Source: Methylophilus sp. 42 (lineage in GTDB: Bacteria > Pseudomonadota > Gammaproteobacteria > Burkholderiales > Methylophilaceae). From it: a stretch of 64,000 nt of DNA. Within the stretch, counting starts at the first letter, position 1; each line of letters begins with the position of its first letter. Location of the stretch: positions 1,929,092 to 1,993,091 of the forward strand of contig NZ_KB913031.1 of the NCBI RefSeq assembly GCF_000384155.1. The letters run 5' to 3'. The notes under the pieces were generated by a model. That model worked only from the letters and a program-made list of their open reading frames with translations, searched no databases and had not been told where the DNA came from. The translations under genes and the position numbers were made by a program. Of the stretch, positions 47 to 62,701 are shown piece by piece.

Positions 47-916
47 TTACGCTACTTTAGGTGAACGGTGCTGGTACTGGTCATTAATGACCTTGGCCAC
101 TACCGGCGCCGCCAATAAATTACCTTGCAGCACGGTCGCGCCAGAAGCAATTGCAATATCCAGTTGCTGTTGTGTTTCTATGCCAAGAATCACCGGGATG
201 CTGCCTAAGTCCTGCACAGTTGCCACCAGGCCCTTAAGGGCTTTGGCCAGCGCTGGTTGTTGTGCTGCCTGATGAATGACCGACACATCAAACTTGATGT
301 AGTCATGATGGGCATTCCATAAGCGGTACAACTTACTCTGATGGCCACCCACATGGTCAAACGCAATCTGATAGCCCAGCGCACGGTAGTTCTCGATGGC
401 AGAAATCAGGTGCTTGTCCTGCTCAATCAGGGACTCGTTAATCTCAAGCACGACACGATGCGTAGGCACTGAGTATTTATGCAGGATCTGCTCAAACACC
501 TTGCCGTGTGCGCTGACTTCAAGCAGCAACTTGGGGTGCACGTTCAAAAACAGCAAACCATTTTCCTGATGAATCGCACGATAGTTCAACACGTGCTGCG
601 AGCGGCAGACGCGGTCAAACTGTACCAGCTTGCCCGATTGCTCGGCGTAGGTGAATGCGAATTCCGGCGTACTGCCCAGCGTGCCAAACAAAGATGGGCG
701 GATCAAGGCTTCGTAGCCGTAGATATCGCCTTGTTTGGCATCATAAATAGGCTGAAAAGCCGTTTTGAGATGCACCCCGATAAAGGTACTCTCATATTCA
801 CCCGAACTGGCTTCTAACAGCCCCAACTCTTCCAGATCCAGCGACAGCGCCTGCTTTAACTCGGCGCGTAACTGTACGACATGTTCTGGTTCCTGATTTG
901 ATTGACGTTGCGTCAT
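47..916 (-). CDS. Degenerate EAL-domain protein, probably non-catalytic
   Basis: A 289-residue cytosolic protein that is essentially one EAL (c-di-GMP phosphodiesterase fold) domain after ~45 N-terminal residues. The EAL signature is present (GYEALIRP, Glu69), as are the Asn of LNVHP and the Glu of VLEINES. Two catalytic sites are altered: the usual DDFG is FDHVGG (second Asp replaced by His) and the usual AEGVE is ILGIE (Glu replaced by Leu). The Lys of YIKFD and the Gln of LQGN are kept. From family knowledge such loss of metal-binding residues predicts no hydrolysis, so a binding or partner-regulating role is inferred. The start at 916 is chosen because AGGAAGGAGT lies 4 nt upstream; an upstream extension to 1036 would overlap the preceding gene. 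It follows the sulfate-binding protein gene by 46 nt on the same strand, so co-transcription is likely. Confidence 0.85.
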   Translation of the reverse strand: MTQRQSNQEPEHVVQLRAELKQALSLDLEELGLLEASSGEYESTFIGVHLKTAFQPIYDAKQGDIYGYEALIRPSLFGTLGSTPEFAFTYAEQSGKLVQFDRVCRSQHVLNYRAIHQENGLLFLNVHPKLLLEVSAHGKVFEQILHKYSVPTHRVVLEINESLIEQDKHLISAIENYRALGYQIAFDHVGGHQSKLYRLWNAHHDYIKFDVSVIHQAAQQPALAKALKGLVATVQDLGSIPVILGIETQQQLDIAIASGATVLQGNLLAAPVVAKVINDQYQHRSPKVA

Positions 917-962: not shown

Positions 963-1943
963 TTACTTCTGGTAAATCTGGTCGAAAATACCGCCATCGC
1001 TAAAATGCGTATTTTCAGCCTCGTTCCAACTACCAAACACCTGCTTGACGGTGAACGTATGTAACTTCTTGAATGCCGGTTGCGCCACTTCGCTTACTTG
1101 CGGACGCAAATAATGCTTGGCGGCCAGCGCTTGCCCTTGTGGTGAGAAATGGAACTCGAGATAAGCCTGTGCCACTTTGCGTGTGCCTTTTTTATCGACC
1201 ACTTTATCCACCAATGACACCGGATTCTCGGCCAATACGGTCACAGACGGATACACCACTTCATATTTGTCCTCACCCAGTTCCTTTTGCAACAGGTAGA
1301 CTTCATTTTCAAACGTCACCAGCACATCGCCGATTTCACGCTGGGCAAAAGTGGTGGTTGCACCGCGGCCGCCGGTATCCAGTACGGGCACATGCTTGAA
1401 CAACTCTGTCACAAACTGGCGCGCTTTCACTGCATCGCCGCCTTTTTGTGTGATATAGCCCCAGGCCGCCAGATAACTATATTTACCGTTACCGGACGTC
1501 TTAGGGTTAGGAATCACGGAAGTCACGCCTGGGCGCACCAGGTCATCCCAGTCTTTGACTTGTTTAGGGTTGCCTTTACGCACCAGAAATACCGTTGGTG
1601 AAGCACTAGGCACGCTGTTATTGGGTAAACGTGTTTGCCAGTTGGCCGGGATCAGTTTGCCTTTTTGTGCCAGGATATCAATGTCGGCACTGCGGTTCAT
1701 GGTAATCACATCTGCCGGCAAGCCGTCGACCACGGAGCGCGCCTGTTTGGTTGAGCCGCCGTGTGACTGGTTGATGGTCACCGTTTCGCCAGTTTTCTCT
1801 TTCCAGTACTGCACAAACGCCGGATTGAAATCCTTATAAAACTCCCTGGTCACATCATAAGACGCATTCAACAACTCGGCGGCTTGCAGTGACACACTGC
1901 TAAACAACACGGCCAATAAGGCACTGCGCAACACAAACGGCAT
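963..1943 (-). CDS. sbp: Periplasmic sulfate/thiosulfate-binding protein (copy 1)
   Basis: A 326-residue solute-binding protein of the Sbp/CysP family, which captures sulfate or thiosulfate in the periplasm for a CysTWA-type ABC importer. A signal peptide covers about residues 1-21, ending LQAAE. Family signatures follow: LLNASYDVTREFY, NQSHGGSTKQARSV, NPKTSGNGKYSYLAAWGY, the GGRGATTTF ligand-binding segment, and a terminal FGSWNEAENTHFSDGGIFD. A strong AAGGGAG lies just before the ATG. No cys permease or ATPase genes are in the window, so this is an orphan binding protein whose partner must lie elsewhere. The degenerate EAL gene follows directly. The divergent neighbour is the serine acetyltransferase-encapsulin-desulfurase operon, which fits induction under sulfur limitation (inference). 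A paralogue lies at 11680-12687. Confidence 0.95.
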   Translation of the reverse strand: MPFVLRSALLAVLFSSVSLQAAELLNASYDVTREFYKDFNPAFVQYWKEKTGETVTINQSHGGSTKQARSVVDGLPADVITMNRSADIDILAQKGKLIPANWQTRLPNNSVPSASPTVFLVRKGNPKQVKDWDDLVRPGVTSVIPNPKTSGNGKYSYLAAWGYITQKGGDAVKARQFVTELFKHVPVLDTGGRGATTTFAQREIGDVLVTFENEVYLLQKELGEDKYEVVYPSVTVLAENPVSLVDKVVDKKGTRKVAQAYLEFHFSPQGQALAAKHYLRPQVSEVAQPAFKKLHTFTVKQVFGSWNEAENTHFSDGGIFDQIYQK

Positions 1944-2060: not shown

Positions 2061-2096
2061 ATGGCCTCTACTGCATTGCAAATGCTGATGCAGTAG
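2061..2096 (+). CDS. Possible 11-residue Met-rich leader peptide (MASTALQMLMQ)
   Basis: A mini-ORF ATG...TAG sits right behind AGGGAGATAA, a good ribosome-binding site. The product would have 11 residues, three of them Met. The 11-bp inverted repeat at 2066-2098 overlaps the coding part. It could be a leader ORF that couples translation to transcription of the downstream sulfur operon, or simply a chance ORF. Nothing but the RBS, the composition and the position supports it. Confidence 0.25.
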   Translation: MASTALQMLMQ

Positions 2097-2098
2097 AG
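2066..2098. repeat. Inverted repeat, 11-bp perfect arms
   Basis: Arms CTCTACTGCAT (2066-2076) and ATGCAGTAGAG (2088-2098) are perfectly complementary around an 11-nt loop. It is followed by TAATTTTAT, which is not a clean T-tract. It could be an operator dyad or an RNA hairpin in the leader. Confidence 0.6.
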
Positions 2099-2205: not shown

Positions 2206-2276
2206 ACTTCGACCCTGTTCAATTACAGCCGTTTATTTTATAGTGGGCGAATATTAAAGCTGACTAGACCACTAGA

Positions 2277-2310
2277 AGCCAGTTTGCACTATTCGTGCAG
2301 CTGGCTTTTT
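2277..2310 (+). terminator. Intrinsic terminator or attenuator in the leader of the sulfur operon
   Basis: AGCCAG and TGCAC pair with GTGCA and GCTGGCT (2277-2306, small internal bulge), followed by TTTTT and a second T-run four bases later. The orientation is plus. It lies 45 nt before the acetyltransferase start, with no plus-strand gene upstream in the window, so it either attenuates that operon or ends a small RNA made from the intergenic region. Confidence 0.55.
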
Positions 2311-2354: not shown

Positions 2355-3257
2355 ATGCAAGAAATCGCGATTGAGCACATCGTGCAAGAACTGGCCAACA
2401 TACGAGAAAGCGCGTTACAACAACGCCAGCGCTTATCACAACCACCGAAACTCCCTTCTCGCAAGGCCTTGGGTCAATGCGTAGAATGGCTGGCAGCAGC
2501 CCTATTCCCCAATCGGCTGGGCGATCCTGACATTCAGGCCAATGCCATTAATTTCTACGTCGGGACAACGCTGGATAAAGCACTGCGAGAGTTACAGCAT
2601 CAGATTCGCCTGGAACTGGCCTTCAAGTCGCCCAGTGAACCGATCAACCAGTTTCGCACGCAAGCACATAATTTCACTGCCCAGTTTTCAGAGCAGTTAC
2701 CTCATATCCGTTTGCAACTGGATACAGATCTGGAGGCCGCCTACCAGGGCGACCCGGCAGCAGACAGTGTGGATGAAATCCTGGTCAGTTATCCCGGCAT
2801 CCTGGCCTTGATTCATTATCGTATTGCCCATGTATTGCATGGCCTGGGGCTGACCATTATTGCGCGTTTAATGACCGAAATTGCCCATTCACAGACGGGG
2901 ATTGATATCCATCCTGGTGCGCAAATTGGCGATCACTTTTTTATCGACCATGGCACGGGCGTCGTGATTGGCGAAACTGCCATTATTGGCAGCCATGTCC
3001 GCCTGTATCAGGCCGTGACATTGGGTGCCAAAAACTTCCCCAAAGATGCCAATGGCCATCTGGTCAAAAAGTTTGAACGTCACCCGATTCTGGAGGACCA
3101 CGTAGTGGTGTATGCCGGCGCCACGATCCTGGGCCGCATCACGATCGGCAAACATTCAATTATTGGCGGCAATGTCTGGGTCACCCGCAGCGTGCCCGCC
3201 AATAGTCATGTCACACAAGCACATTCGGATGCCAAACCGATTCCGGTGGCTGCTTGA
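2355..3257 (+). CDS. Serine O-acetyltransferase, EpsC type
   Basis: A 300-residue acetyltransferase that makes O-acetylserine from serine and acetyl-CoA, the carbon acceptor for sulfide in cysteine synthesis. The N-terminal ~170 residues are helical; the C-terminal part is a left-handed hexapeptide-repeat domain with the family signature TGIDIHPGAQIG, then FIDHGTGVVIGET, a variable loop ending ERHP, and IIGGNVWVT. It is longer than enterobacterial CysE (about 273 residues), as in the EpsC/encapsulin-linked branch. AGGA stands 10 nt before ATG 2355; an in-frame TTG at 2349 is less likely. It is the first gene of an operon with the encapsulin (58-nt gap) and the cysteine desulfurase. Acetyltransferase genes are known neighbours of family 2A encapsulins, which suggests matched supply of O-acetylserine and sulfur. 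Confidence 0.92.
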   Translation: MQEIAIEHIVQELANIRESALQQRQRLSQPPKLPSRKALGQCVEWLAAALFPNRLGDPDIQANAINFYVGTTLDKALRELQHQIRLELAFKSPSEPINQFRTQAHNFTAQFSEQLPHIRLQLDTDLEAAYQGDPAADSVDEILVSYPGILALIHYRIAHVLHGLGLTIIARLMTEIAHSQTGIDIHPGAQIGDHFFIDHGTGVVIGETAIIGSHVRLYQAVTLGAKNFPKDANGHLVKKFERHPILEDHVVVYAGATILGRITIGKHSIIGGNVWVTRSVPANSHVTQAHSDAKPIPVAA

Positions 3258-3315
3258 TTTTTAACCACTCAGTTTTTAGCCGCTAATTAATTAGTTTAAT
3301 AAGGAGAATAATCGT

Positions 3316-4230
3316 ATGTCTGAACAACCAACCCAAAGCGCCTTAGGCGATGTCGCCGCACGAACGCTTGCCAATGCCACCAAATCGGTGCCTATGCTCA
3401 GCACCATCAGCCCACGCTGGCTGGTGCATTTGCTCAATTGGGTACCGGTAGAAGCTGGTATTTACCGCGTCAACAAGGCCAAAGATCCTAACGCCATTAC
3501 GGTCGATTGCTCTAACAAAGACGAAAAAGAATTGCCAGCGACTTTTGTCGACTACGAAGAATGGGGCCGTGAATATGTGTTGAACGCCGTCAACACCGTG
3601 GTAGACGTACATACCCGCGTGTCTGACCTTTACAGCAGCCCGCACAACCAGATCAAAGAGCAATTGCGCCTGACCATTGAAGTGGTGAAAGAGCGCCAGG
3701 AAAGCGAACTGATCAACAACAAGGAATACGGCCTGCTGAACAACGTGGCCAAGTCACAAACGGTAAAAACCCGTAACGGCTTCCCTACCCCGGACGACCT
3801 GGATGAATTGCTGACCAAAGTCTGGAAAGAGCCTGCGTTCTTCCTGGCGCACCCGAAAGCGATTGCTGCCTTTGGCCGTGAGTGCACCCGTCGCGGCGTG
3901 CCACCACCAACCGTGTCCCTGTTTGGCTCACAATTCCTGACCTGGCGCGGCGTACCGCTGATTCCTAGCGACAAACTGCCTATCGTCAATGGCAAATCCA
4001 AAATCCTGTTGCTGCGCGTAGGCGAAAGCAAACAAGGCGTGATTGGTTTGTATCAACCGAACCTGCCAGGTCAACAAACCATGGGCTTGTCTGTGCGCTT
4101 CATGGGTATCAACCATAAAGCGATTGCGTCCTACCTGGTCTCCCTGTATTGCTCACTGGCAGTGCTGACCGAAGATGCGATTGCCGTACTGGAAGATGTC
4201 GGAGTTGACCATTACTATGACTACAAGTAA
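3316..4230 (+). CDS. Family 2A encapsulin shell protein (SrpI-like)
   Basis: A 304-residue HK97-fold shell protein expected to self-assemble into a protein nanocompartment in the cytosol. Recognition rests on the overall sequence (PRWLVHLLNWVPVEAGIYRVN near the N-terminus, NGFPTPDDLDELLTKVW and LFGSQFLTWRGVPLIPSDK in the middle, VGLYQPNLPGQ-like and YLVSLYCSLAVLTEDAI segments later) and on the next gene being its standard cargo. The length matches Synechococcus SrpI. It has no cyclic-nucleotide-binding insertion, so it belongs to type 2A and not 2B. AAGGAG lies 9 nt before the ATG. From published work on this family, the shell is induced by sulfur starvation and packs cysteine desulfurase. 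Older annotation names such as 'major membrane protein' for this family are misleading. Confidence 0.93.
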   Translation: MSEQPTQSALGDVAARTLANATKSVPMLSTISPRWLVHLLNWVPVEAGIYRVNKAKDPNAITVDCSNKDEKELPATFVDYEEWGREYVLNAVNTVVDVHTRVSDLYSSPHNQIKEQLRLTIEVVKERQESELINNKEYGLLNNVAKSQTVKTRNGFPTPDDLDELLTKVWKEPAFFLAHPKAIAAFGRECTRRGVPPPTVSLFGSQFLTWRGVPLIPSDKLPIVNGKSKILLLRVGESKQGVIGLYQPNLPGQQTMGLSVRFMGINHKAIASYLVSLYCSLAVLTEDAIAVLEDVGVDHYYDYK

Positions 4231-6118
4231 TTCTATCGATTTAGCGAGCTTTGAGCCTGAGGCGATATTAGCCTCACTACCGGGTGAGCATCCGAAGATG
4301 ACGGCTGCGCTGGGCGTGGGTCGCGAACTGGAAAACACAGGGGTGCTGGATACCGCCACCCTGACGCAACTGGTAAATGATCTTTACGCCGAGGGCTTTC
4401 CGGCCACCGCCCCGTTTGCCGCAGCAGACTTTGCGCAATCATTGGCCGCTGGACATACACCACAACCGTCTGTGCCAGCCACTGACTCATTGACCACGAA
4501 ACTGGGCAATGCAGGGGGCAGCTCTTTGGGCGTATCGTCACCTAGCTACGTTCAGTCGCAAGTGCAACCCGTTACGCTGGAAACACAGGCGCAGCAACTC
4601 ACTTACGCGCCTGGCGTGGAAACATTGGCCAGTGATCCGCTGCATAACCATCCGGCACACCTGAATGTGTTGCAGCCTGACGCCGCTTACCTGGCACCGG
4701 CCGCATTTGGCGGGCTGGGCATTGAGATTCCCTATCAGCAGGAGCTTGATCGCTGGTTGGGCACAGGTGCGGGCCAGTCTCCGTCATCAGCAGCATCCAC
4801 GCAACCGGCCAACAAACCATCTGCGGGCAGCGCGCAATCATTCTATTTTTTGCAAGCTGAGCCAGCCGTCATCGGTAGCCTGCCCGCCTCTGCGCATCCA
4901 GCCTTTGATGTGCATGCCGTGCGCCGCGACTTCCCGATTCTGAACGAGCGCGTCAACGGCCGTCAGTTAGTCTGGTTTGATAACGCCGCAACCACGCACA
5001 AACCACAGGTAGTCATAGACCGCATCAGCTATTTCTATCAGCACGAAAACTCCAATATTCACCGCGCTGCGCATGAACTGGCGGCACGTGCGACGGATGC
5101 TTATGAAGATGCTCGTGAAACCGTGCGCCGCTTTATCAATGCACCGTCGGTGAATAACGTAATTTTTGTGCGTGGCACCACCGAAGCCATTAACCTGGTG
5201 GCCAAAACCTGGGGCAAGAAGCACCTGGGCGCTGGTGACGAGATTGTGGTTTCCAACCTTGAGCATCACGCCAATATCGTGCCCTGGCAGCAGCTATGCC
5301 AGGAAACAGGCGCGGTGATCAAGGTGATTCCGGTCGATGATAGTGGGCAGATCTTGCTGGAGGAATACCAGAAATTGCTGACGGCAAAAACCAAACTGGT
5401 GTCTTTCACGCAAGTGTCGAATGCTTTGGGCACCGTCACGCCGGCGCAGGAAATGATTGCCATGGCACACCGGGTTGGCGCCAAGGTATTACTGGACGGC
5501 GCACAATCCGTCTCGCACCTGCGTACGGATGTACAAACGCTGGATGCTGACTTTTTTGTGTTCTCCGGACACAAGATTTTCGGCCCGACCGGTATTGGTG
5601 CGCTGTATGGTAAAGCAGACGTGTTGCAAGACATGCCGGCCTGGCAAGGTGGCGGTAATATGATTCAGGATGTCACCTTTGAAAAAACGGTGTATCACCC
5701 GGCGCCAGCCAAGTTTGAAGCAGGCACCGGCAACATCGCGGATGCCGTGGGTTTAGGTGCTGCACTGAAATATGTGGAACGCCTGGGCATTGAGAACATC
5801 GCTGCCTACGAGCATGCTTTGCTTGAATACGCGACCGCAGCCATGAGCCAGATCCCCAACCTGCGTTTGATTGGTACCGCCAAACACAAAGCCAGCGTGC
5901 TGTCATTTGCACTCAAAGGCTACCAGAGTGAAGAAGTCGGTGCAGCGCTGAATGAAGAAGGCATTGCGGTGCGTTCTGGTCATCATTGCGCACAACCTAT
6001 CTTGCGCCGCTTTGGTGTCGAAACCACGGTGCGTCCTTCATTGGCGTTTTATAACACCTATGAAGAAATTGACCGCATGATTGCGGTGTTGCAGCGTTTG
6101 GCGTCTTATCACGCTTAA
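4217..6118 (+). CDS. Encapsulated cysteine desulfurase with N-terminal cargo-loading extension
   Basis: A 633-residue PLP enzyme that takes sulfur from cysteine as a persulfide, releasing alanine. Residues ~230-633 are a complete SufS-type (class II) desulfurase: FDNAATTHKP, NLEHHANIVPW, LDGAQ, the PLP lysine in FSGHK (Lys453), EAGTGN, and the catalytic cysteine in VRSGHHCAQP (Cys591). Residues 1-229 are not part of the enzyme fold: rich in Ala, Pro, Gln, Ser and Thr, largely without predicted regular structure. This is the hallmark of the cargo-loading domain that targets these enzymes into family 2A encapsulins. The start at 4217 is preferred (CGGAG 11 nt upstream); it overlaps the shell gene by 14 nt, implying coupled translation. 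Earlier in-frame ATGs at 4175 and 4196 have no proper RBS. A strong terminator follows. Confidence 0.93.
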   Translation: MTTSNSIDLASFEPEAILASLPGEHPKMTAALGVGRELENTGVLDTATLTQLVNDLYAEGFPATAPFAAADFAQSLAAGHTPQPSVPATDSLTTKLGNAGGSSLGVSSPSYVQSQVQPVTLETQAQQLTYAPGVETLASDPLHNHPAHLNVLQPDAAYLAPAAFGGLGIEIPYQQELDRWLGTGAGQSPSSAASTQPANKPSAGSAQSFYFLQAEPAVIGSLPASAHPAFDVHAVRRDFPILNERVNGRQLVWFDNAATTHKPQVVIDRISYFYQHENSNIHRAAHELAARATDAYEDARETVRRFINAPSVNNVIFVRGTTEAINLVAKTWGKKHLGAGDEIVVSNLEHHANIVPWQQLCQETGAVIKVIPVDDSGQILLEEYQKLLTAKTKLVSFTQVSNALGTVTPAQEMIAMAHRVGAKVLLDGAQSVSHLRTDVQTLDADFFVFSGHKIFGPTGIGALYGKADVLQDMPAWQGGGNMIQDVTFEKTVYHPAPAKFEAGTGNIADAVGLGAALKYVERLGIENIAAYEHALLEYATAAMSQIPNLRLIGTAKHKASVLSFALKGYQSEEVGAALNEEGIAVRSGHHCAQPILRRFGVETTVRPSLAFYNTYEEIDRMIAVLQRLASYHA

Positions 6119-6141
6119 GCGCACGCAATCTCGACCGCAAC

Positions 6142-6176
6142 GGGCGTACAGTGGCACATCACTGTACGCCCTTTTT
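6142..6176 (+). terminator. Intrinsic terminator of the encapsulin operon
   Basis: A perfect 12-bp stem, GGGCGTACAGTG / CACTGTACGCCC, with a 6-nt loop and a TTTTT tail, 23 nt after the desulfurase stop. Confidence 0.9.
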
Positions 6177-6287: not shown

Positions 6288-7622
6288 ATGAAATTTGATC
6301 CGCGTAATAACAAATTCACTTCAATTTTTACCAGAGAAATGCTGGAGGCCACACTGCCTTCAGTTCTGCTGATCTGCCTCGCCCTGTTTTTTGCCTACAA
6401 ATTCATAGACCCGGCGCCACCACGCAAGATTGTGATCGCTACTGGTGAGGCCGATTTAAACTACAACGCCTACGCGGCTATCTACGGCGTCTACTTGCAA
6501 AAGGAAGGCATCACGCTGGAGTTGCGTAAAACGTCAGGGGATACTGAAAATCTGCGTTTGCTGAAAGATCCGGAATCAGACGTCGACATTGCCTTTATCC
6601 AGGATGGTGTGGCCCATAGCGAAGGTGCAGGATCCTTGCTATCCCTCGGCAGCTTGTATTACCAGCCGGTATGGATTTTTTGCCGCTGCAAAGCCACTAC
6701 GACGCATTTGTCAGCGCTCAAAGGCAAACGTATTGCCATCGGTTATGCTGGCAATGGTACCCATACCCTGGTCAGTACACTACTCACAGAAAGTGGCATT
6801 AACAATAGCAATACCAAGCTCGTGTCCATTGGCGGCGAAGAAGCCGCGACTGCGCTAAGACAGGGCAAACTGGATGCCGCACTGTTTGTGGATGTCGCCA
6901 ATTCTGGCATGATTCACGAAATGGTGACTGACAAACGCCTGCGCTTGCTGAGCATGGATACCGCAGAAGCCTTTTCACGAAAATTCGCCTTTATGCACCA
7001 TCTGGTGCTGCCTGAAGGCGCCATGGACCTGGCGCGCAACATTCCGGGGCATGATGTGCACTTAGTAGCGCCTACAGCCACGCTGGTGGTGAAAGAAAGC
7101 ATGCATCCTGCCCTGGCTTACCTGATGATGAAAGTGATTGCCGAGGTACATGGCGGCCCTAGCCTGTTTAATACCAAAGGCGAGTTTCCTTCAGCCAAAG
7201 ATACCGACTTCCCACTGAGTACGCAGGCGCTTAATTTTTACAAATCCGGCTTACCGATTATTGATAAATACCTGCCGTTCTGGGCAGCGACATTTGTGAA
7301 CCGCACCTTGATCGTGATCTTGCCATTGCTGGCCTTGCTGATCCCGCTGACCAAGATTATCCCGATGGTGTATGTGTGGCTTGTTAAACGCAAACTATTC
7401 CGTTATTACGGCGAGTTGCGCTTTCTTGATACCCAATTACAAGAGATCAAGAGTGCTGCAGATGTAGAGGAATGCCTGGAAAAACTCAATGAAATTGAAG
7501 CGAAAGTGGTCAATGTGAAATTACCAGTGCCATTCTCACAATATGCTTATGAGTTACGTGCGCATATTGAGCTGGTCAGGTCAAAGCTCAATCATCACAA
7601 GTTTCAACCAGCATCCGTTTAA
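6288..7622 (+). CDS. Membrane-anchored TAXI-family solute-binding protein
   Basis: A 444-residue protein with a TAXI-type (TRAP transporter-associated, immunogenic-protein-like) binding domain. An N-terminal membrane segment (about 23-42, SVLLICLALFFAYKF) is followed by the binding domain: IVIATGEADLNYNAYA, FIQDGVA, LKGKRIAIGYAGNGTHTL, LDAALFVDV. A second membrane segment lies at about 340-365 (LIVILPLLALLIPL), and then a ~75-residue charged, probably helical tail. Classical TAXI proteins are free periplasmic receptors with a cleaved signal peptide; here the domain is held between two membrane anchors and the tail would be cytosolic, so signalling or a structural role is possible. No TRAP permease genes are nearby. 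It is separated from the encapsulin operon by a terminator, so any link to sulfur is only positional. No strong RBS is seen. Confidence 0.8.
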   Translation: MKFDPRNNKFTSIFTREMLEATLPSVLLICLALFFAYKFIDPAPPRKIVIATGEADLNYNAYAAIYGVYLQKEGITLELRKTSGDTENLRLLKDPESDVDIAFIQDGVAHSEGAGSLLSLGSLYYQPVWIFCRCKATTTHLSALKGKRIAIGYAGNGTHTLVSTLLTESGINNSNTKLVSIGGEEAATALRQGKLDAALFVDVANSGMIHEMVTDKRLRLLSMDTAEAFSRKFAFMHHLVLPEGAMDLARNIPGHDVHLVAPTATLVVKESMHPALAYLMMKVIAEVHGGPSLFNTKGEFPSAKDTDFPLSTQALNFYKSGLPIIDKYLPFWAATFVNRTLIVILPLLALLIPLTKIIPMVYVWLVKRKLFRYYGELRFLDTQLQEIKSAADVEECLEKLNEIEAKVVNVKLPVPFSQYAYELRAHIELVRSKLNHHKFQPASV

Positions 7623-9492: not shown

Positions 9493-11157
9493 TTAAGCGC
9501 TTGCTGATGCGGTCTCTACGGGCAGATTGTTCGCCACCCATTGTTGTAAAGCCTGGGCTTCCAGCGGCCGGGCAAACAGAAAACCTTGTGCGATATCGCA
9601 GCCTATACCTTTGAGAAAACCGGCCTGGGCTTCAGTTTCGATACCTTCGGCAATAATACGGTAATCCAGGCTCTTACCTAAGCTGACGATGGCCTGAATC
9701 ACCGCCTCGGCCTTGTTATGGCCAGGCAATTCCATCACAAATGAACGGTCCACTTTTAAATAGTCGCCAGGAATATCACGCAGATAAGACAAGCACGAAT
9801 ATCCGGTGCCAAAATCGTCAATCGCCAGCTTGATGCCCGCCTGTTTCAGGCGATGCATGATGCGGGCATTTTCACCATCATCCTGCACGAAAGAGCTTTC
9901 GGTGAGCTCAACCACCAGCCGCTGTGGCGGGAAGCCGGTTTCAGCCAGGATTTGTAAAATATCCTCCACCAGCGTGCCTGACTTGAGTTGCAGGGCGGAG
10001 ACATTCACCGCCACTTCGATCTTGCCCAACACAGGGTCATGGTGCCATTGCGCAGCCTGCGTGCAAGCCGTGCGCATGACCCATTTGCCTAAAGGCACAA
10101 TCAGACCGGTCAATTCGGCCACCCGGATAAACTTTTCTGGAGAAATAATGCCTTTTTCCGGATGTCGCCAGCGTACCAGGGCCTCGACGCCTTTTAATTT
10201 GCCGGTATTGAAATCGACTTGTGGTTGATACACCATAAAGAACTGGTGACTATCCAACGCAGCTTCCAGTTGGCTGGCAAAGTCCATATCGGTCGCTGGC
10301 AGCACCTGTTCGTTGCTTTGCCCTTTGCGGTAATAGGTGACAGTCATCGTGTAAACAATCGCCAAAATCGCTACCACAACGACCGCTGGCAATGCACGCA
10401 TATTGTCTTCAAACTCGACACCGGCTCTGGCCAGCATAATGGCGAAAAAGCTCAAGAAAACGATACTGAAGCGTATCTGCTTACCATTGTCATCCATCAG
10501 CAACAAGTAACTCATGGGCGGATGCGACGCGTGCCTGGCCAATAAACCAAAGGCGCACAACAAGCCACTTAGAGTTGCCAGCGGCGGCATCAGGCCGTAA
10601 GGACGTGCAATGCCGCACAAAAACCCCAGTAGCGGAATCAATGGAATCATGACTGCGACGCACAAAATAGCCTGGCTGGTGGCTAGCCAGCCAGAACGCT
10701 GGAAGAGATAGGAAATGGCAATCAGACACGCCAGCAAAGCACCTGAGGCATATTCCACCAGCCTCGAGTCTTGTTGCACCTGTATGTCATTCGCAATGCG
10801 CAGCAACTGCGCAGTATCGTTAAAATCGGCGGCGTAAGGAGAAAGTTGCACCATGAACAAACTGATGGTGACCAGTGACATGGTGAGCATGGCCAGATTG
10901 GTGCGACCGTTTTCCAGCAGCAAATTGTAGCTGACCAGAATAAAGGTGAGATAAGTCAGTAATTGTGCCAGCCAGACATTGTTATCAACGTCTAACAGGT
11001 AATGCGGAAAACCCAGCAAGCCACAGACCATGCTGGCCATGGCCAAGAAATGGGTGTTGTCCTGCACTTTACGCACAAGACGATGACGCATAAACTGCCG
11101 CTGCGTTATATTTTCGCTGAGTGGCGCTGCCAGTTCGCCAATCCCGGTTTGACTCAT
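9493..11157 (-). CDS. Membrane-bound EAL c-di-GMP phosphodiesterase (paralogue 2)
   Basis: A 554-residue protein: N-terminal membrane region (about residues 35-295) and C-terminal EAL domain with complete motifs (VEALVRW, VNVSALQL, VELTES, IDDFGTGYS, YLKVDRSF, IAEGIET, IAQGFLFARP). Active phosphodiesterase is expected. The NVSP motif reads NVSA here, but the Asn is kept. AAAGGG precedes the ATG by 6 nt. It is the tandem paralogue of 7639-9267; the membrane halves have diverged far more than the EAL halves, which suggests that the two proteins sense different signals while sharing one output. Nothing in the neighbourhood names the signal. Position inside a sulfur-acquisition island is suggestive only. 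Confidence 0.92.
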   Translation of the reverse strand: MSQTGIGELAAPLSENITQRQFMRHRLVRKVQDNTHFLAMASMVCGLLGFPHYLLDVDNNVWLAQLLTYLTFILVSYNLLLENGRTNLAMLTMSLVTISLFMVQLSPYAADFNDTAQLLRIANDIQVQQDSRLVEYASGALLACLIAISYLFQRSGWLATSQAILCVAVMIPLIPLLGFLCGIARPYGLMPPLATLSGLLCAFGLLARHASHPPMSYLLLMDDNGKQIRFSIVFLSFFAIMLARAGVEFEDNMRALPAVVVVAILAIVYTMTVTYYRKGQSNEQVLPATDMDFASQLEAALDSHQFFMVYQPQVDFNTGKLKGVEALVRWRHPEKGIISPEKFIRVAELTGLIVPLGKWVMRTACTQAAQWHHDPVLGKIEVAVNVSALQLKSGTLVEDILQILAETGFPPQRLVVELTESSFVQDDGENARIMHRLKQAGIKLAIDDFGTGYSCLSYLRDIPGDYLKVDRSFVMELPGHNKAEAVIQAIVSLGKSLDYRIIAEGIETEAQAGFLKGIGCDIAQGFLFARPLEAQALQQWVANNLPVETASASA

Positions 11158-11332: not shown

Positions 11333-11611
11333 TCAGGCCGCCTCGAGCACGCGCTGCATGCCATCCGCGCTATTGCGTGTATATACGACCTTGAGGCCAC
11401 GCTTGTGTGCCACATGCTTGATGCGGTACATCATGGAATGATTGAGCCAGCCCGTGACCAACACAATCACATTGACGTTTGCCGGTAGCTCGCGTTTCAC
11501 ATCGCCAGGCTTCCTGCCGGTCCAGTGATCAATTTTATCGATCCCTTGCGCCTGCAGTACCTGTTTGATGCCTTCTATACGGTCACCACCAATCACTAAT
11601 GCTTTTGACAT
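11333..11611 (-). CDS. DUF2325 small protein
   Basis: A 92-residue protein of the DUF2325 family. The start MSKALVIGGDRIEGI and the later VNVIVLVTGWLNHSMMYRIK are typical of this family, which has a Rossmann-like or dinucleotide-binding look (V-I-G-G-D-R near the N-terminus) and no established function. An AAGGAG stands 8 nt before the ATG. It lies 68 nt downstream of the second sulfate-binding protein, but a 13-bp terminator hairpin stands between, so it is either read through or has its own promoter. The neighbourhood suggests, but does not show, a role in the sulfur or oxyanion response. Confidence 0.75.
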   Translation of the reverse strand: MSKALVIGGDRIEGIKQVLQAQGIDKIDHWTGRKPGDVKRELPANVNVIVLVTGWLNHSMMYRIKHVAHKRGLKVVYTRNSADGMQRVLEAA

Positions 11612-11679: not shown

Positions 11680-12687
11680 TTATTTCTGGTAAATCTCGTC
11701 AAACACGCCGCCATCGGCAAAATGTGTTTTCTGTGCTTTTTGCCAGCCGCCAAACACATCATCAATTTTGATCAAATTGACCTTTGGAAACTGTTTTTCG
11801 TATTTCTTGGCGACAGACTCCAGGGTTGGGCGGTAGTAGTTCTTCGCCGCAATTTCCTGGCCTTCTTCGCTATACAAATACTGCAAATATGCTTCTGCCA
11901 CGGCCTGCGTATTATGGCGTTTGACGTTTTTGTCGACCACCGTCACAGGCGGTTCAGCCAAAATCGACAAGGAAGGCACCACGATATCAAACTTGTCCGG
12001 ACCCAGTTCTTTCAACGCGAGGAAAGCTTCGTTTTCCCAAGCCAGCAACACATCACCAATGCCACGCTCGACAAAAGTGGTGGTTGAGCCACGCGCACCG
12101 CTATCCAGCACCGGCACGTTTTTAAACAGCTTTTTCAGGAAGTCCTTGGCCTTGGCATCGTCATTATTGTTCTGCTTGAGCGCATAAGCATAAGCAGCCA
12201 GGTAGTTCCAGCGTGCACCGCCCGAGGTTTTCGGGTTCGGTGTAATCACCGAAGTCCCTGGCTTCACCAGATCATTCCAGTCCTTGATGTTTTTCGGGTT
12301 ACCTTTACGCACCAGAAACACAATGGTGGAGGTATAAGGTGAGCTGTTATGCGGCAGACGTTTTTGCCAGTCTGGCCCAAACAAACGGCCTTTGCTGCCC
12401 ACTTCGTCAATGTCGTAAGATAAGGCCAGTGTCACCACATCCGCCTGCAAGCCATCGATGACTGAACGCGCCTGCTTGCCTGAGCCACCATGTGACTGTT
12501 TAATAATCACATTGTCGCCTGTTTTGGCTTTCCAGTACTTTGCAAATGCATCGTTGTAGTCTTGGTACAACTCACGGGTCGGGTCGTATGACACATTGAG
12601 CAGGTTGACATCGGCAGCCCCAGACAATAATGGGAATGTCAGAGTGAGCGCCAGTAAAGCATGTTTTAAACTATGATTGAATCTCAT
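11680..12687 (-). CDS. sbp: Periplasmic sulfate/thiosulfate-binding protein (copy 2)
   Basis: A 335-residue Sbp-family protein, paralogous to 963-1943 (same order of motifs: [69 protein letters not shown]). A signal peptide covers about residues 1-24. It binds sulfate or thiosulfate in the periplasm. Two adjacent ATGs exist; the second (12687) is preferred because AAGGGA is only 2 nt from the first and 5 nt from the second. It is the last gene of an operon after DUF2292 and an AlgE-like outer-membrane barrel (12-nt gap). Two orphan copies close together suggest different ligand affinity or expression level. Confidence 0.95.
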
Positions 12688-12702
12688 CATATTCCCTTGT
12701 TA

Positions 12703-14412
12703 TTAGAAGCCGTATAAAGTCAGCTCGGTATAGAAGAAGTTGGACGTATCGGAACGATTGGCTTGCCCCGCAACCAGGCGTGACGTTGTCTTCACAAAAT
12801 CGCCAGCCCAGAAGTGCGCATAACCCAGATTCAAAGCAGCATATTGACTCAATGGGAAACGAACTCTTAAATCGAACTCTTTACCTAAGTCTCTACCAGC
12901 ATTACCCGTGACATCCTGCAAATTGTTACCTGCTGCCCAACGGTCTGTTGCGCTATCCAGGCGATACCAGCTAAAGCCCGTATCTACTTTCACATTATCC
13001 AAAAATGGCACTTTAGGATCGAACTCTGCACGTATTTTGGCTGCGCGAATATTATTCATTTGAATATAGTCGTTATTAGACCAAGGACGTGCAAACCCGA
13101 ACAAACGGTCAAAACCCTGATTGTCAGAAGTGTCCGTCGCAGTCGTACCAGAGACCTTATCGCCGCTCGCTACGCCATAAGAACCGCTGAAACGTGGTTT
13201 CCATGAATGCTTGTTAAAGGTATAGCCAACTTCTGCGGTATAGGCATAAGCATCGTGATCAACATTGATATAACGGCCTGTTGCCAAACTGCCAATATAG
13301 CGTTGAACTTCACCCCACTGTTTGCTGTAGCTCGCGTCATAGTCCCATTGTGTTCCTGGAACCACACCATACACGCGCACACCACCGGTATTAATCTCAC
13401 GATCAACTTGTGCCCTGACTTGTTGTAATGGATTAGTATAAACACTGCGGTCACTATATGCGGTACCGTTACCGTCATACTCAACCCTGTTACCATTCTG
13501 CTTCAGGTAAAAGTAATAAGGCTGAATCGTCACATAGTCAGACCAGCCGCGCCAGTCACCCACCAGGCCGTAAAATTTCTGGGCATGATCAACCTGGTCC
13601 AATTGGTTGGCAAAGCGCTGTACCGGTTGTACGGCAAAAGCTTCCAACTGCCAGTCATTTTTCTTTTCGCCGATATTGGCACGGATACCCTGGAAAGTAT
13701 TGGTCGTGTTGCGCCACTCGTTACGTGCGATCAAACGACGATCCAGGTCTTCCCAAGCCAGACGACCACCACGCACCCAGAATGGACGATTGTTACCCAG
13801 GTCATCTTTGCCAAAAATACTTTCTTTGAAATACAGTTCCAGATAGGCCTGTAAAAAGTCAGCATGGTCAATATCTTTTGGGTCGTTGGATAAACGACGA
13901 TCAGTACTATCATTGTAATCACTGTGATTACGACGGGAATCCTGCACTTCAACCGCGAAACGGAACGGGTCTAAAATGTTTTTCAGGCCCAAATAAGCGC
14001 GTGAACGCAACAGGAGTGGATCATCAATATTTTCTTGCGCACGGCGAAAATCGTTTTGACGGCTTTCGTAACGGGCGCGATATTCAAAGCCAATGTCCAG
14101 CCAGTCAACATCAGCAAAACTGTCGTAATCTTTCAACCATGTTTTGTTTAATTGTTTTACGTATCTTGGTGGCTCGGTTTCTTTTTGTGTGCCATAACTA
14201 CGGCGCTCAACATAATAGCCACTTGCTGCTTTGGCAGCCGCTTTTTCTTCAGCCTTGATTTCTTCCAGGCGTGCTTTTACTTTCTTTTGTTGCTCAGCAT
14301 CCTCTACTTGTGTCTCGGCCAGCTGTACCTCTTCTGCCGCCGCGGCCACGCCATTACCCAGCCACCACACACCTGCGGTTGCCAGTGCAAGGCTTAATTT
14401 CTTTAACTGCAT
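12703..14412 (-). CDS. AlgE-like (alginate-export domain) outer-membrane barrel
   Basis: A 569-residue outer-membrane protein. It has a signal peptide (about 1-25, ending VAAAAEE), then a charged helical or coiled-coil stretch (about 36-66, rich in Lys, Glu and Ala) and a long beta-barrel with the hallmarks of the alginate_exp family: DIGFEYRARYESR, LLLRSRAYLGLKN, VRGGRLAWEDLDRRL, and a terminal TELTLYGF ending in Phe as needed for Bam recognition. Despite the family name, alginate export is unlikely: no alginate genes are near. It is the middle gene between DUF2292 (64-nt gap) and a sulfate-binding protein (12-nt gap), so passive entry of sulfate or a sulfonated or sulfated compound into the periplasm is the best inference. 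A good GGGAGA lies before the ATG. Confidence 0.88.
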   Translation of the reverse strand: MQLKKLSLALATAGVWWLGNGVAAAAEEVQLAETQVEDAEQQKKVKARLEEIKAEEKAAAKAASGYYVERRSYGTQKETEPPRYVKQLNKTWLKDYDSFADVDWLDIGFEYRARYESRQNDFRRAQENIDDPLLLRSRAYLGLKNILDPFRFAVEVQDSRRNHSDYNDSTDRRLSNDPKDIDHADFLQAYLELYFKESIFGKDDLGNNRPFWVRGGRLAWEDLDRRLIARNEWRNTTNTFQGIRANIGEKKNDWQLEAFAVQPVQRFANQLDQVDHAQKFYGLVGDWRGWSDYVTIQPYYFYLKQNGNRVEYDGNGTAYSDRSVYTNPLQQVRAQVDREINTGGVRVYGVVPGTQWDYDASYSKQWGEVQRYIGSLATGRYINVDHDAYAYTAEVGYTFNKHSWKPRFSGSYGVASGDKVSGTTATDTSDNQGFDRLFGFARPWSNNDYIQMNNIRAAKIRAEFDPKVPFLDNVKVDTGFSWYRLDSATDRWAAGNNLQDVTGNAGRDLGKEFDLRVRFPLSQYAALNLGYAHFWAGDFVKTTSRLVAGQANRSDTSNFFYTELTLYGF

Positions 14413-14476
14413 GTATTATCTCCCGTTAATTAATGACTTCCAGCAGCCTGGTCAGTGCTCAGTAAAATCTTATCAA

Positions 14477-55181: not shown

Positions 55182-55307
55182 TTAAACTTACCTAATCAAC
55201 TCTTTATGCGCAATATAACAGTTTAATAAAACAAGACAAACGGACTATTGTGATTAATTGTAAATCCCTGTATTGTCATGCAAAAAAACAAACAGGGAAA
55301 AACAATA

Positions 55308-58300
55308 ATGCAGGTGCAATTTAACCAATGGCAGTCTATTAACTTACAAGACTTTTCTAATAGCTTTGGCGACATCACAGATTCAGTTAAAGACACTGAT
55401 AACACACTGACAAGCTTAGCATCCCAGTCAATTTACTTTTATGATGGTAGTAATAGCACAGGCTACGGAAGTTGGGGCAGCTATGATATTTCTGTAAAAG
55501 GAAGTAACTTTTTAGGTAGTTCGCCTAGAGCTACTTACGTAAAACTCACGGACTCTGGTGAAAAATATGAGTTCAACGGAAGCATCAATATATCGAACAC
55601 AGTCTGGGGTTACGTTATTAATGGCGGTACGTTTAGCTCGCTTACACATTCTGATGCTGCTGTAACTGACTATATTATCAAGGGCTCATTTACATACTCG
55701 CCCACATTTAATAACTCCATTAATGGCGGCACAATTACGTCCGCAACAGTTAATCCATCAAGTGGAAAGCTGACGCTAACTGGAACACTTAACATTGATT
55801 CCAACGAGGTAATTACCAGCGGAACAATTAGCTCAATCAGTTATACCTCTCCAGATGGCAAAAGCTTCAGTATCAGCAATGCACTGATTGATGCTGCAGA
55901 CCTGCAATCAATACTGCAAGGTGCCGGTTCCAGTACAGACTTCTCAACATTAAGCAGCTTCTTATTGAGTAGCTCATACTTAACAGGTAATGACACAATT
56001 ATAGGTGATAGCCAAAACAACACTCTTGATGGTGGCGCAGGCGTAGACAAACTCATCGGTGGCGCTGGTGATGATACCTACATCGTTGACCTCGTTCGTA
56101 CAGGCACAACCCCAGCTAACTTCAAGGTCGCTCTGCAAGATACCATCACTGAAGCCACCAATGCAGGCAGTGATACCGTGCAACTGCGCTTACTCAGTGG
56201 CACAGACTTCAGCACCATGGCCAATGCAACTACCCTCACCCTCGGCGCGAACCTCGAGAATCTGAATGCCTCAGACACAGGCTCTACCAAGCTCAACCTC
56301 ACAGGTAACGCACTCGCCAACACCCTCACAGGCAATGATGCTAACAATATCCTTGATGGCGGCGCTGGTGTAGATACTCTTATCGGTGGTCTCGGTGATG
56401 ATACCTATATGCTTGACCTCAAGGTCTCTGCTGGCAACATCGTGTTTGATGACTCTATCACAGAACTCGACGGCAATAACGAAGGGATCGATACCATCAA
56501 ACTACGTGGCACAGCTACGCTTGCCACAGCAGCAACTCTCACCCTAGACAATGACTGGGCTAACATTGAAATCCTTGATGCTTCTGCTACAGGCTCAACC
56601 AAGCTCAATCTCACAGGCAACAACCTGGGCAACACACTGATCGGCAATGCCGCCGCGAACATCCTGACCGGGGGTACTGGCGACGACACCCTTAACGGCG
56701 GCGCCGGAATCGATACTATGATCGGTGGGGCGGGCAATGATACATACATCGTCGATAACATCGCTGATATCGTGACCGAAGACTCTAACGAAGGCACTGA
56801 CCTGGTCAAAGCCAGCGTCAGTTACACGCTGGGCGCAAACATTGAGGACCTGGAACTGACTGGCGCCGCTGCCATCAATGGCACCGGTAATGGTTTAGAT
56901 AACGTCATCACAGGGAATGCTGGTAACAACGTTCTGGATGGCGGTGCAGGTGCTGACAGTATGGAAGGTGGCAAAGGTAACGATACCTATATCGTCGATG
57001 ATGAAGATGATGAAGTCATTGAAGCTGCAAACGGGGGTACTGACCTCGTTAAAGCAAGTGTCGATTATGAACTCACTGACTTTGTCGAAAACCTGACGCT
57101 TACCGGCAATGATCATATCAATGGCACTGGCAATGCGCTGGCAAATACCATCACTGGCAATGCCGGCAATAACATCCTCGATGGTGGCGATGGCGTAGAC
57201 AAACTCATCGGTGGGGCGGGTGATGATATCTACATCGTCGACCTCATTCAGACCGGTACCAATGCCGCTGCATACAGGGTCGCACTGCAAGACACCATCA
57301 CTGAAGCTGCCAATGCCGGCAATGACACCGTCAAGTTACGTGGTAACTTTGATCACATTAACGCAACCACTCTCACCTTGGGCGCTAACCTCGAGAACCT
57401 TGATGCTTCTGCAACAGGCTTAACCAAACTCAACCTCACTGGCAATGCACTCGCAAATACTCTCACAGGCAATGATGCAGATAACATCCTTGATGGCGGC
57501 GCTGGGGTAGATACCCTGCAGGGTGGCGAAGGTAATGACACCTACATTTTGGACCTCAAAGCCACAGCCGGAATTCTTTCGATTGAAGATGCAGTAGAAG
57601 AATTTAATGGCACAACTGATGGCATTGATACCATCAAGCTGCGTGGTTCAGCTACGCTTGCCACAGCAGCAACTCTCACCCTGGATAATGACTGGGCCAA
57701 CATCGAGATCCTTGATGCTTCTGCTACAGGCTCAACCAAGCTCAACCTCACAGGTAACAACCTGGGCAACACACTGATCGGTAATGCCGCCGCGAACATC
57801 CTGACCGGGGGTACTGGCGATGACACCCTTAACGGCGGCGCCGGAATCGATACTATGATCGGTGGGGCGGGCAATGATACATACATTGTCGATAACATCG
57901 CTGATATCGTGACCGAAGACTCTAATGAAGGCACAGACCTGGTCAAAGCCAGTGTCAGTTATACGCTGGGCGCAAACATTGAAGACCTGGAACTGACTGG
58001 CGCCGCTGCCATCAATGGCACCGGCAACGATGATGCAAACATCATTACAGGCAATGCAGGCAACAACATCCTCGATGGCAAAGGTGGCATTGACTCCTTA
58101 CGTGGTGGCAAAGGCAACGATACCTATATCGTCGATGATGAAGATGATGAAGTCATTGAAGCTGCAAATGAAGGCACTGACCTCGTTAAAGCCAGTGTCG
58201 ATTATGAACTCACTGACTTTGTCGAAAACCTGACGCTTACCGGCAATGATCATATCAATGGCACTGGCAATGCGCTGGCAAATATCATCACTGGCAATGC

Positions 58301-60233: not shown

Positions 60234-60243
60234 TAATAAATTA

Positions 60244-60296
60244 GGCAATCTAGCTCAAAATCTATTACTACCTAAAGATTGATGAGCTAGATTGCC
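60244..60296. terminator. Long inverted repeat after RTX gene 1
   Basis: GGCAATCTAGCTCA (60244-60257) pairs perfectly with TGAGCTAGATTGCC (60283-60296) around a 25-nt loop. No T-tract follows, so it may end or stabilise the transcript. Confidence 0.55.
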
Positions 60297-60523
60297 AATC
60301 TTGTAGCATCTGGTATACAAGAAATAAAAACTATTATGTAAATCCAGAAATAAGTATGGCGACTGATTTCTGTTATCAATTGCATATTGATAGTGATGAG
60401 ATTATATGTCTATGTCGCTTAAAAATAATTTTGCTCTATCAAGAAATTCATAGTGTCGCAGCATGGTTCTTGTTAAATATATAAACCATATTTAACAACA
60501 ATAACTAACAGGGAAAAGAAAAA

Positions 60524-62701
60524 ATGAATATCCAGTATTCAGGATGGGAGTCCATACTACTCAGTAACTTTAGCAGTGCCCTATCAACAAATGCCCAAAC
60601 GCATTACACGTTATTTGCCGTGGTCGATATTGAATACATGGCTTTTAGCGATTGGCAGGCAACAAATACATACGCTTCTGGAACTGAATACAGTACGGGC
60701 TACCAATATACGCTTACGGGTAATCACTTTATCGATGACACCCCCCTGCTTACAATTAAAACAATATCGTTGACCTCACTATCCAGTAACGAGAACTTTA
60801 TACTTTCAAGTCCTGGCGTAACCGCAAACTACAATAATGGCTCTATTACTGGCGCCATTAATAAATTTGAATATACTAACTTTACTACTGGGGAGTCTTA
60901 TAGTATCTCGGGAAGCTTTGGGGTCAGCGCAGATGGGGCAGTACTTAAAGCGGGTACAATAACCTCTCTAATCTACTCATCTAATTCAGTCGACTCGTAT
61001 TCTATAAAAGGCAGCTTAACAACTAATTCAAACGGTGAGATTTCTGGCGGAACATTGAATGAAATCACATTCATAGACTCTTCAGAACATACCTTAAAGG
61101 CTAGTGGCTTTTCGATTAGCTGGACACAGTTCGTATCGTTAACTAGCGGACATTCATCTCTTTCAGATCTATTTTCCTATATTAACTCAGAGTCAAATCT
61201 AGCTGGCAATGATTACATTCAAGGTGGGGATGAAGCCGATAATTTATATAGCGGCGCGGGTAACGACACACTCGATGGCGGCGCTGGTGCGGACACGCTC
61301 ATCGGTGGCAAAGGCAACGATACTTATATCGTCGACGATGAAGATGATGAAATCATTGAGAACTTCAACGAAGGCACTGACCTCGTTAAAGCAAGTGTCA
61401 GTTATACCCTCTCAGATAACGTTGAGAACCTCACTCTGACTGATGGCTCAGCAAACGGTGGGACCGCAGCCATTAACGGAATTGGTAATGCGCTGGCAAA
61501 CACCATCACCGGCAATGCTGGCAATAACATCCTCGATGGTGGCGCTGGTGTAGACAAACTCATCGGCGGGAATGGTGATGACACCTACATCGTTGATCTC
61601 GTCCGCACAGGCACAACCCCAGCTAACTTCAAGGTCGCTCTGCAAGATACCATCACTGAAACCGCTCTCGCAGGCTCCGGAACTGACACAGTCATATTGC
61701 GTGGCACCTTTACTGAACCGACCACTTTCACTACCCTCACCTTAGGTGCAAACCTCGAGAATCTGAATGCCTCAGACACAGGCTTAACCAAACTCAACCT
61801 CACAGGCAATGTACTCGCCAACACTCTCACTGGCAATGATACTAATAACATCCTTGATGGCGGCGCTGGTGTAGATACTCTCATCGGTGGCCTTGGTGAT
61901 GATACTTATGTGATCGATATCAAGACCTCAGCCGGAAGTATTTTGATTGAAGACACAGTAACCGAACTCAATGGCACAACTGAAGGTATCGATACCGTTA
62001 AACTACGTGGCACCGCGACTCTAGCGACAGCTGCAACACTGACTCTGGATAATGACTGGGCTAACATCGAGATCCTTGACGCTTCAGCCACTGGATCAAC
62101 CAAACTCGACTTGACCGGCAACAACCTGGGCAACACTTTAATTGGGAATGCTGCAGCTAACATCCTGACCGGTGGTACTGGCGACGATATCCTTAACGGT
62201 GGTGCAGGCGCAGACACCATGATCGGTGGTGATGGCGATGATACTTACATCGTCGATAATATCGCTGATATCGTGACCGAAGACTCTAATGAAGGCACAG
62301 ACCTGGTCAAAGCCAGTGTCAGTTATACGCTCGGTGACAATGTAGAGAACCTGGAACTCACAGGCACTGCCGCCATCAATGGCACCGGCAATGATGATGC
62401 AAACATCATCACAGGCAATGCAGGCAACAACATCCTTGATGGCAAAGGTGGCATTGACACCCTCATCGGTGGCAAAGGCAACGATACCTATATCGTCGAC
62501 GATAAAGATGATGAAGTGATTGAAGCTGCAAATGAAGGCATTGACCTCGTTAAAGCCAGTGTCGATTATGAACTCACTGACTTTGTCGAAAACCTGACGC
62601 TTACCGGCAATGATCATATCAATGGCACTGGCAATGCGCGCTGGCAAATATCATCACCGGCAATGCTGGCAATAACATCCTCGATGGTGGCGCTGGTGTA
62701 G
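60524..62701 (+). CDS. Giant RTX protein, type I secreted (2), N-terminal uninterrupted part
   Basis: A sister of the gene at 55308-60233, spaced by 290 bp. The start has AGGGAAAAG 6 nt upstream. Residues 1-227 are the same kind of beta domain ([22 protein letters not shown]). RTX repeats begin about residue 228 with [14 protein letters not shown], then D, A, B, C, D modules almost identical in DNA to gene 1. The frame is lost at about 62637 by a 2-base insertion (GCGC where the parallel copies have GC) and stops at 62701. The same reading frame is resumed later and stays open to the window end, so the true gene very probably extends beyond 64000. Confidence 0.8.

Follow-up and report, generated by a model that had tools for sequence, protein, structure and literature searches.

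A conserved leader hairpin and terminator precede a family 2A encapsulin operon in a sulfate-uptake island of Methylophilus

Introduction

Why cells build sulfur encapsulins is an open question. We describe here an operon in a 64,000-nucleotide stretch of the Methylophilus sp. 42 genome (contig NZ_KB913031.1, positions 1,929,092 to 1,993,091; hereafter the window). Its three genes encode a serine O-acetyltransferase, an encapsulin shell protein and a cysteine desulfurase. A first-pass annotation of the window described these genes and left out what is the most informative part of the locus, a conserved leader hairpin followed by an intrinsic terminator. We consider it likely that the locus encodes a family 2A encapsulin in a sulfate-uptake island and that its expression is set by a leader RNA switch.

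Results

A conserved hairpin leads into an intrinsic terminator

Alignment of 13 leaders from the genus revealed a conserved block, GCTGACCAG...CTGGAAGCCAG, that leads into the terminator (Table 1). The hairpin has the consensus GCUGACCRG-NNNN-CYGGAAGC and consists of two stems, P1 (2259-2261/2277-2279) and P2 (2264-2267/2272-2275), separated by a GA/A internal loop and capped by a loop at 2268-2271. Transcription is expected to start ~10-15 nt 5′ of the hairpin; the -10-like box of the predicted promoter was not listed by a consensus promoter scanner.

The stems are maintained by paired changes. Among 66 hairpin cores, 97.2% of the cells pair, and the covariation score exceeded those of all 500 shuffles and of all slid versions. 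The strongest covarying pair is the third of P2, which is GC in 37 cores and AU in 29. The full set of 75 cores takes in two unpaired porin sites; here pairing holds in 506 of 525 cells versus a shuffled mean of 462, a level reached by none of 1000 shuffles. Kinship alone can beat shuffles without any structure, and the slid controls and the paired changes carry more weight.

The element does not correspond to a known Rfam leader. Searches of Rfam 15 gave no match at E values up to 1 over 13 kb of the window, only two unrelated chance matches at E values up to 10 in the 146-nt leader region, and only one unrelated sub-threshold match in the loci of six relatives. A full-text literature search found nothing on such an element, which is weak evidence of novelty given its thin coverage of subscription journals, and searching with the letters of the element gave, among the matches listed, only papers unrelated by title. 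A CsrA-type GGA site was also considered and dropped, as the window's stem reads CUAG and by eye has no GGA.

A perfect 11-base inverted repeat, terminator-like, lies at 2066-2098 (+) between the sulfate-binding protein 1 (SBP1) gene and the acetyltransferase leader; of 12 aligned relatives L126 has a stretch resembling it, and it is absent from most. The leader hairpin stands in two tandem copies before a porin gene in L080 (~6122-6167) and before a shell gene in L099 (~9893-9937, +).

Table 1. Features of the encapsulin locus and the surrounding sulfate-uptake genes (window coordinates).
Feature	Position	Strand	Evidence
-10-like box TATAGT (predicted promoter)	2237..2242	+	TATAGT or TATATT conserved across 13 genus leaders
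Class I leader hairpin, 21 nt	2259..2279	+	Conservation, covariation, sense strand only, R1 E 2.0e-7, folding
Intrinsic terminator	2276..2310	+	Stem 2276-2307, U-run 2306-2310; its 5′ arm takes the P1 3′ arm
Class II element, same hairpin without terminator	14433..14458	-	R1 E 1.2e-5; exact pattern match; ~20 nt before porin start codon
Serine O-acetyltransferase, EpsC-type	2355..3257	+	ATG at 2355, stop codon end 3257; NF041874 158.9 bits (cut-off 150)
Family 2A encapsulin shell protein (SrpI-like, HK97-fold family)	3316..4230	+	NF041162 535.5 bits (cut-off 380); 6x8m E 1.6e-158
Encapsulated SufS-type cysteine desulfurase, ~230-residue N-terminal loading region (contains FYFL)	4217..6118	+	NF041166 909.5 bits (cut-off 800)
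SBP1, first gene of SBP1-EAL-CysT-CysW-CysA	963..1943	-	TIGR00971 431.9 bits; order as in L136 and relatives
Stand-alone EAL-domain protein inside sulfate ABC operon	47..916	-	Pfam EAL 129 bits
Alginate_exp-type outer-membrane porin, head of porin-SBP2-DUF2325 row	12703..14412	-	Pfam PF13372 399.9 bits
Sulfate-binding protein 2 (SBP2)	11680..12690	-	NF008022 559.1 bits
DUF2325 protein	11333..11611	-	PF10087 48.9 bits (cut-off 33.6)

The hairpin precedes sulfur-supply genes with or without a terminator

A pattern written after seeing the window's two sites matched the genome exactly twice, in the acetyltransferase leader and in a porin leader 12 kb away. There were five further matches with one mismatch, and the reversed control gave four with at most one. 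By the pattern and by model R1, whose training set consisted of the leaders of acetyltransferase, cysK, shell and porin genes, the two strong sites of this genome are those of the encapsulin operon and the nearby porin-sulfate-binding operon.

In relatives too, the element keeps to the sense orientation in the leaders of genes with related functions. The hairpin was found 74 times in sense and never in antisense orientation in 251 segments lying 5′ of acetyltransferase, cysK or shell genes, many of which are not first in their operon; none of the shuffled segments (20 shuffles each) carries it. Segments upstream of porin genes had it in sense orientation in 31 of 70 cases and in antisense in none. 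A terminator follows 72 of the 74 acetyltransferase, cysK and shell elements versus only one of the 31 porin elements. Within the window's family, where 62 of 187 genomes have the shell gene, 50 of these were examined and 46 carry the element within 2.6 kb 5′ of it; the other four each had less than 1.5 kb of upstream sequence in the scan. Two of these four, G046 and G052, also had no element at the heads in longer loci, and a weaker variant is present in G173 (R1 E 0.0057).

R1 reported 17 sites with E < 0.001 over 18 genomes; judged by the downstream reading frame, 13 of these sites precede an acetyltransferase, cysK, shell, cysJ, sigma-54 regulator, FadL-type protein or porin gene. Across 121 genomes of a methanotroph family it found 74 sites in 46 genomes (E ≤ 0.001), and we classified 72 of them, leaving out the two weakest. 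These precede cysK (27), acetyltransferase (9), shell (3), cysJ (4) and sigma-54 activator (4) genes, Alginate_exp (14) and Porin_O_P (7) porin genes, other genes (2) or a contig end (2). Terminators accompany 45 of the 47 enzyme or regulator sites and none of the 21 porin sites. Curated models identified representative downstream genes (TIGR01931 cysJ, 763.4 bits; TIGR01139 cysK, 458.9 bits; Sigma54_activat; Alginate_exp; Porin_O_P), and the cysJ and sigma-54 genes were recovered though they lie outside the training set of R1. In G616 both of the two shell genes are preceded by an element and a cysK gene. Sites and shells go together in the methanotroph family: a site is present in 40 of 57 genomes with a shell gene versus six of 64 without (Fisher 2e-12, in a test that ignores the kinship of the genomes). 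We lean towards the element being common to methylotrophic beta- and methanotrophic gammaproteobacteria, as part of the joint RNA-switch reading.

Hairpin and terminator also stand before genes for FadL-type outer-membrane proteins at L147 15848 (+) and L244 ~1501 (+), a call made by Pfam Toluene_X for L244 and by eye for L147. As a class-wide feature the element was rejected: in an even sample of 369 genomes of the class, which includes the window's own, an exact pattern gave 38 sites in 34 genomes versus four in the reversed control, and long open frames contain most of the sites inspected. Apart from the window's genome, only G322 and G435 have sites that look real, and the pattern misses the window's own leader (stem CUAG).

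Several results weigh against a leader switch. The outer pair of P1 is weak in porin cores (17 of 29), and two of six full leaders do not keep P2 beside the terminator in the minimum-energy fold. That R1 regains its own training classes is partly by construction; among its 17 sites are three apparent chance matches within coding sequence and a fourth, ambiguous one (L204). There is no strong cassette site in G293, in G489 or in the Nitrosomonas, Nitrosospira and Ferriphaselus genomes searched. In the methanotroph family 17 of the 57 shell genomes carry no site; counted by gene, a site lies at most 3.6 kb upstream for 36 of 62 shell genes and is missing for the other 26.

The operon encodes a family 2A encapsulin and its desulfurase cargo

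All three genes are open and intact where the first-pass annotation placed them, and its identification of the shell, the SufS-type cargo and the EpsC-type acetyltransferase was borne out by the family models (Table 1). The shell protein also scored above the family 2B cut-off (422.5 versus 400 bits), though lower than for family 2A; its 304 residues have SrpI-like as their sole Pfam match (351.8 bits), with no cyclic-nucleotide-binding domain, the mark of 2B. The best solved chain is SrpI of Synechococcus, aligned over residues 2-304. Its identity to the shells of two Methylophilus relatives is 100% (L043, over 304 residues) and 99% (L044), and it is single-copy in the window's genome (2,968,340 bases, one contig).

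For the desulfurase, the ATG at 4217 fits as the start and gives a 14-base overlap with the end of the shell gene; the mechanical open reading frame begins at 4175. The SufS-like domain begins at about residue 230, and the ~230 residues before it have no Pfam match. Comparison with the published loading motifs LARLANEFFS and AASPYYFLDG showed FYFL in this protein, [FY][FY]FL in 63 of 73 relatives and, in 29 of these 73, a relaxed version of the first motif.

The acetyltransferase passes the EpsC-type model and scored 160.9 bits with TIGR01172 (cysE), below its cut-off of 210.65; its best solved relative is 3f1x (E 5.6e-81). A canonical cysE lies elsewhere in the genome. The idea that acetyltransferases of such cassettes are without the C-terminal, cysteine-synthase-binding isoleucine was rejected, since 25 of 69 end in Ile. 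The earlier proposal that all three products make up a nanocompartment agrees with the identities of the shell and the cargo; the acetyltransferase is an accessory enzyme, and nothing observed here places it in the particle.

An operon of this composition is of an already published kind. The accessible part of a large encapsulin survey lists 1,281 desulfurase operons of family 2A, of which Proteobacteria have 813, with serine acetyltransferases and rhodaneses as the most enriched accessories (PMC8346489). Our operon resembles these in its shell, desulfurase and serine acetyltransferase accessory and in its host, Proteobacteria being the main hosts; the main text of the survey does not contain the whole words 'porin', 'sulfate', 'riboswitch' or 'terminator'. 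The shell appears in seven of the 369 genomes of the class sample, counting the window's own, and six of these are above the cut-off.

The Synechococcus elongatus SrpI/CyD encapsulin, as described in the accessible part of its report (PMC8049743), is alike in its shell, in an adjoining SufS-type cargo with an N-terminal region of ~225-230 residues and in having sulfur-linked neighbours. Cargo loading and up-regulation on sulfate starvation are published for it (PMC8049743). By contrast, the operon described here lies in a proteobacterial island with an EpsC-type acetyltransferase, sulfate ABC genes, porins and a leader hairpin; the portion of that report available to us describes no leader RNA and contains neither 'riboswitch' nor 'untranslated'.

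A modular cassette lies within a sulfate-uptake island

The first-pass annotation placed the operon in a sulfate-scavenging island with two sulfate-binding proteins, and both proteins are present. The SBP1-EAL-CysT-CysW-CysA operon runs leftwards from the cassette past the left edge of the window, the porin-SBP2-DUF2325 row lies to the right of the cassette, and in many relatives such genes flank the cassette as well. We surveyed 80 named relatives, with a shell reading frame picked in 76 loci and some clusters named by eye. Within 6 kb of the shell gene there was an acetyltransferase in 67 loci, a sulfate-binding protein in 40, transport permeases in 38, an EAL protein in 34, a cysteine synthase in 28 (a cluster name verified on one relative) and a DUF2325 protein in 25. 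In Nitrosomonas relatives the porin, sulfate-binding protein, DUF2325, EAL, shell, desulfurase, permease and ATPase genes all lie on the same strand.

The cassette itself is a modular, movable part of this island. Genome G062 retains a remnant (L163 10219-10654) with an intact leader element, ~44 acetyltransferase codons and the first shell codons, followed by the next gene, and G063 has the same neighbours with no cassette genes between them. By search, 125 of the 187 family genomes have no shell gene. One counted among these, G076, has the acetyltransferase and desulfurase genes at contig ends, and an assembly gap is the probable reason for its missing shell gene. At 6288-7622 (+), a gene for a TAXI/NMT1-type solute-binding protein lies 3′ of the desulfurase gene in Methylophilus relatives and stays after cassette loss.

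The idea that the EAL and DUF2325 proteins belong to the encapsulin system was rejected. An EAL gene is present in 77 of the 187 family genomes, 59 of the 62 with the shell and 18 of the 125 without it (lists compared by eye). It lies within 4 kb of cysT, cysW or cysA in all 15 shell-less genomes that were fetched (three of the 18 were not) and therefore belongs to sulfate uptake. The EAL gene, between those for the sulfate-binding protein and CysT/W/A, has the same surroundings whether or not a relative carries the encapsulin. By eye the metal-binding motifs of its product appear degenerate (FDHVGGH for DDFGTG and ILGIET for AEGVE), so that it may have a sensor role; the literature search found no paper joining 'EAL domain' and 'sulfate-binding protein'. 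The DUF2325 protein accompanies a sulfate-binding protein in many relatives, and 64 of the 187 family genomes have one. The accessible part of an anammox encapsulin paper names DUF2325 as possible secondary cargo (PMC6934571).

Farther along the window, at 55278-62701 (+), two large reading frames are packed with near-identical repeats and resemble calcium-binding beta-roll secreted proteins.

Discussion

From the conservation, covariation, strand and position of the hairpin, its two platforms recognised in silico and the genes it precedes, we infer a switch together with its direction and its signal. Folding of the growing window leader in silico gave P1-P2 at 22 to 36 nt (-5.4 kcal/mol); at ≥ 50 nt the terminator (-21.0 kcal/mol) takes the P1 3′ arm and leaves P2, which is also kept beside the terminator in the minimum-energy fold of four of six full leaders. 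The first 22-36 nt of the transcript would thus fold into P1-P2, and once the downstream arm was made the terminator would capture the P1 3′ arm and transcription would stop. A factor holding P1-P2, whether a protein or a small molecule, would let the polymerase read through and presumably report sulfur shortage, a signal that such read-through would fit. The factor may be a protein sooner than a small molecule, to judge from the fixed GA/A internal loop and from the small loop, whose bases vary. The terminator-less hairpin 20 nt before the start codon of the porin-SBP2 row would act on translation or on mRNA stability.

The layout is a familiar one. Known riboswitches and protein-bound leaders have a conserved hairpin that competes with a terminator, and a second version can lie near the ribosome-binding site. 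The attenuator and riboswitch leaders in Rfam 15 are alike in this respect, but the hairpin described here is only ~21 nt long and has no match among them. The operon is known; the leader is probably a new regulatory RNA. On balance we favour the further view that the hairpin represents a new RNA switch family for sulfur status, one of the smallest known and with two platforms, and that it puts the sulfur encapsulin under the direct control of a sulfur signal.

The asymmetry of the two conserved flanking motifs (left, CYGA; right, GAAG), the restriction to the sense strand and the sharing of the P1 3′ arm with the terminator make it unlikely that the sequence is instead a DNA operator for a sulfur-regulon transcription factor, with the terminator unrelated. 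P2 is also an inverted repeat as DNA, the site is near the predicted promoter, and inverted repeats in DNA can covary too; however, P2 shows paired substitutions, which would not be compatible with a factor that recognises fixed half-sites, and at porins the element sits between leader and start codon.

With regard to the compartment, published homologues suggest that the shell would assemble around the desulfurase, loaded through its N-terminal extension, that the enzyme would take sulfur from cysteine inside the shell and that the neighbouring acetyltransferase would feed cysteine synthesis. A role in Fe-S cluster assembly or general cysteine turnover instead of a sulfur store would suit a SufS-like enzyme (TIGR01979, 560.4 bits; cut-off 475.1), but we hold it to be improbable: other desulfurase-like genes lie beside the canonical cysE (1904644-1908257), where gene order suggests the household isc locus by position only, and the cassette is often lost, as the G062 remnant, the empty G063 locus and the many shell-less family genomes show.

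The first-pass annotation proposed that sulfur is held as protein persulfide, with local cysteine turnover under limitation, which we think unlikely. One persulfide per subunit would be a small store, and an Acinetobacter homologue reportedly stores elemental sulfur. The proposal does agree with the persulfide intermediate formed by SufS enzymes, as stated in the available text of the survey (PMC8346489).

It is very unlikely that the structure is no more than a terminator with a conserved stem, shielding the cassette from transcription upstream and involving no switch. It does make a good intrinsic terminator, but the window's upstream gene is divergent and leaves no transcription to be insulated against, conservation is higher in the upstream hairpin than in the terminator loop, and the same hairpin stands without a terminator at 21 of 21 classified porin sites.

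If the RNA-switch reading is right, one switch would serve the sulfate porins, sulfite reductase, cysteine synthase and the encapsulin, through attenuation before cysK, serine acetyltransferase, encapsulin, cysJ and sigma-54 regulator genes and close to the start codon before the porins of the sulfate island. With ~21 nt and two platforms, such a switch would be a new and compact regulatory RNA of bacteria employed in methanol and methane biotechnology, and its signal could be sought with a 60-nt leader. The compartment would then be part of the cells' sulfur-supply response.

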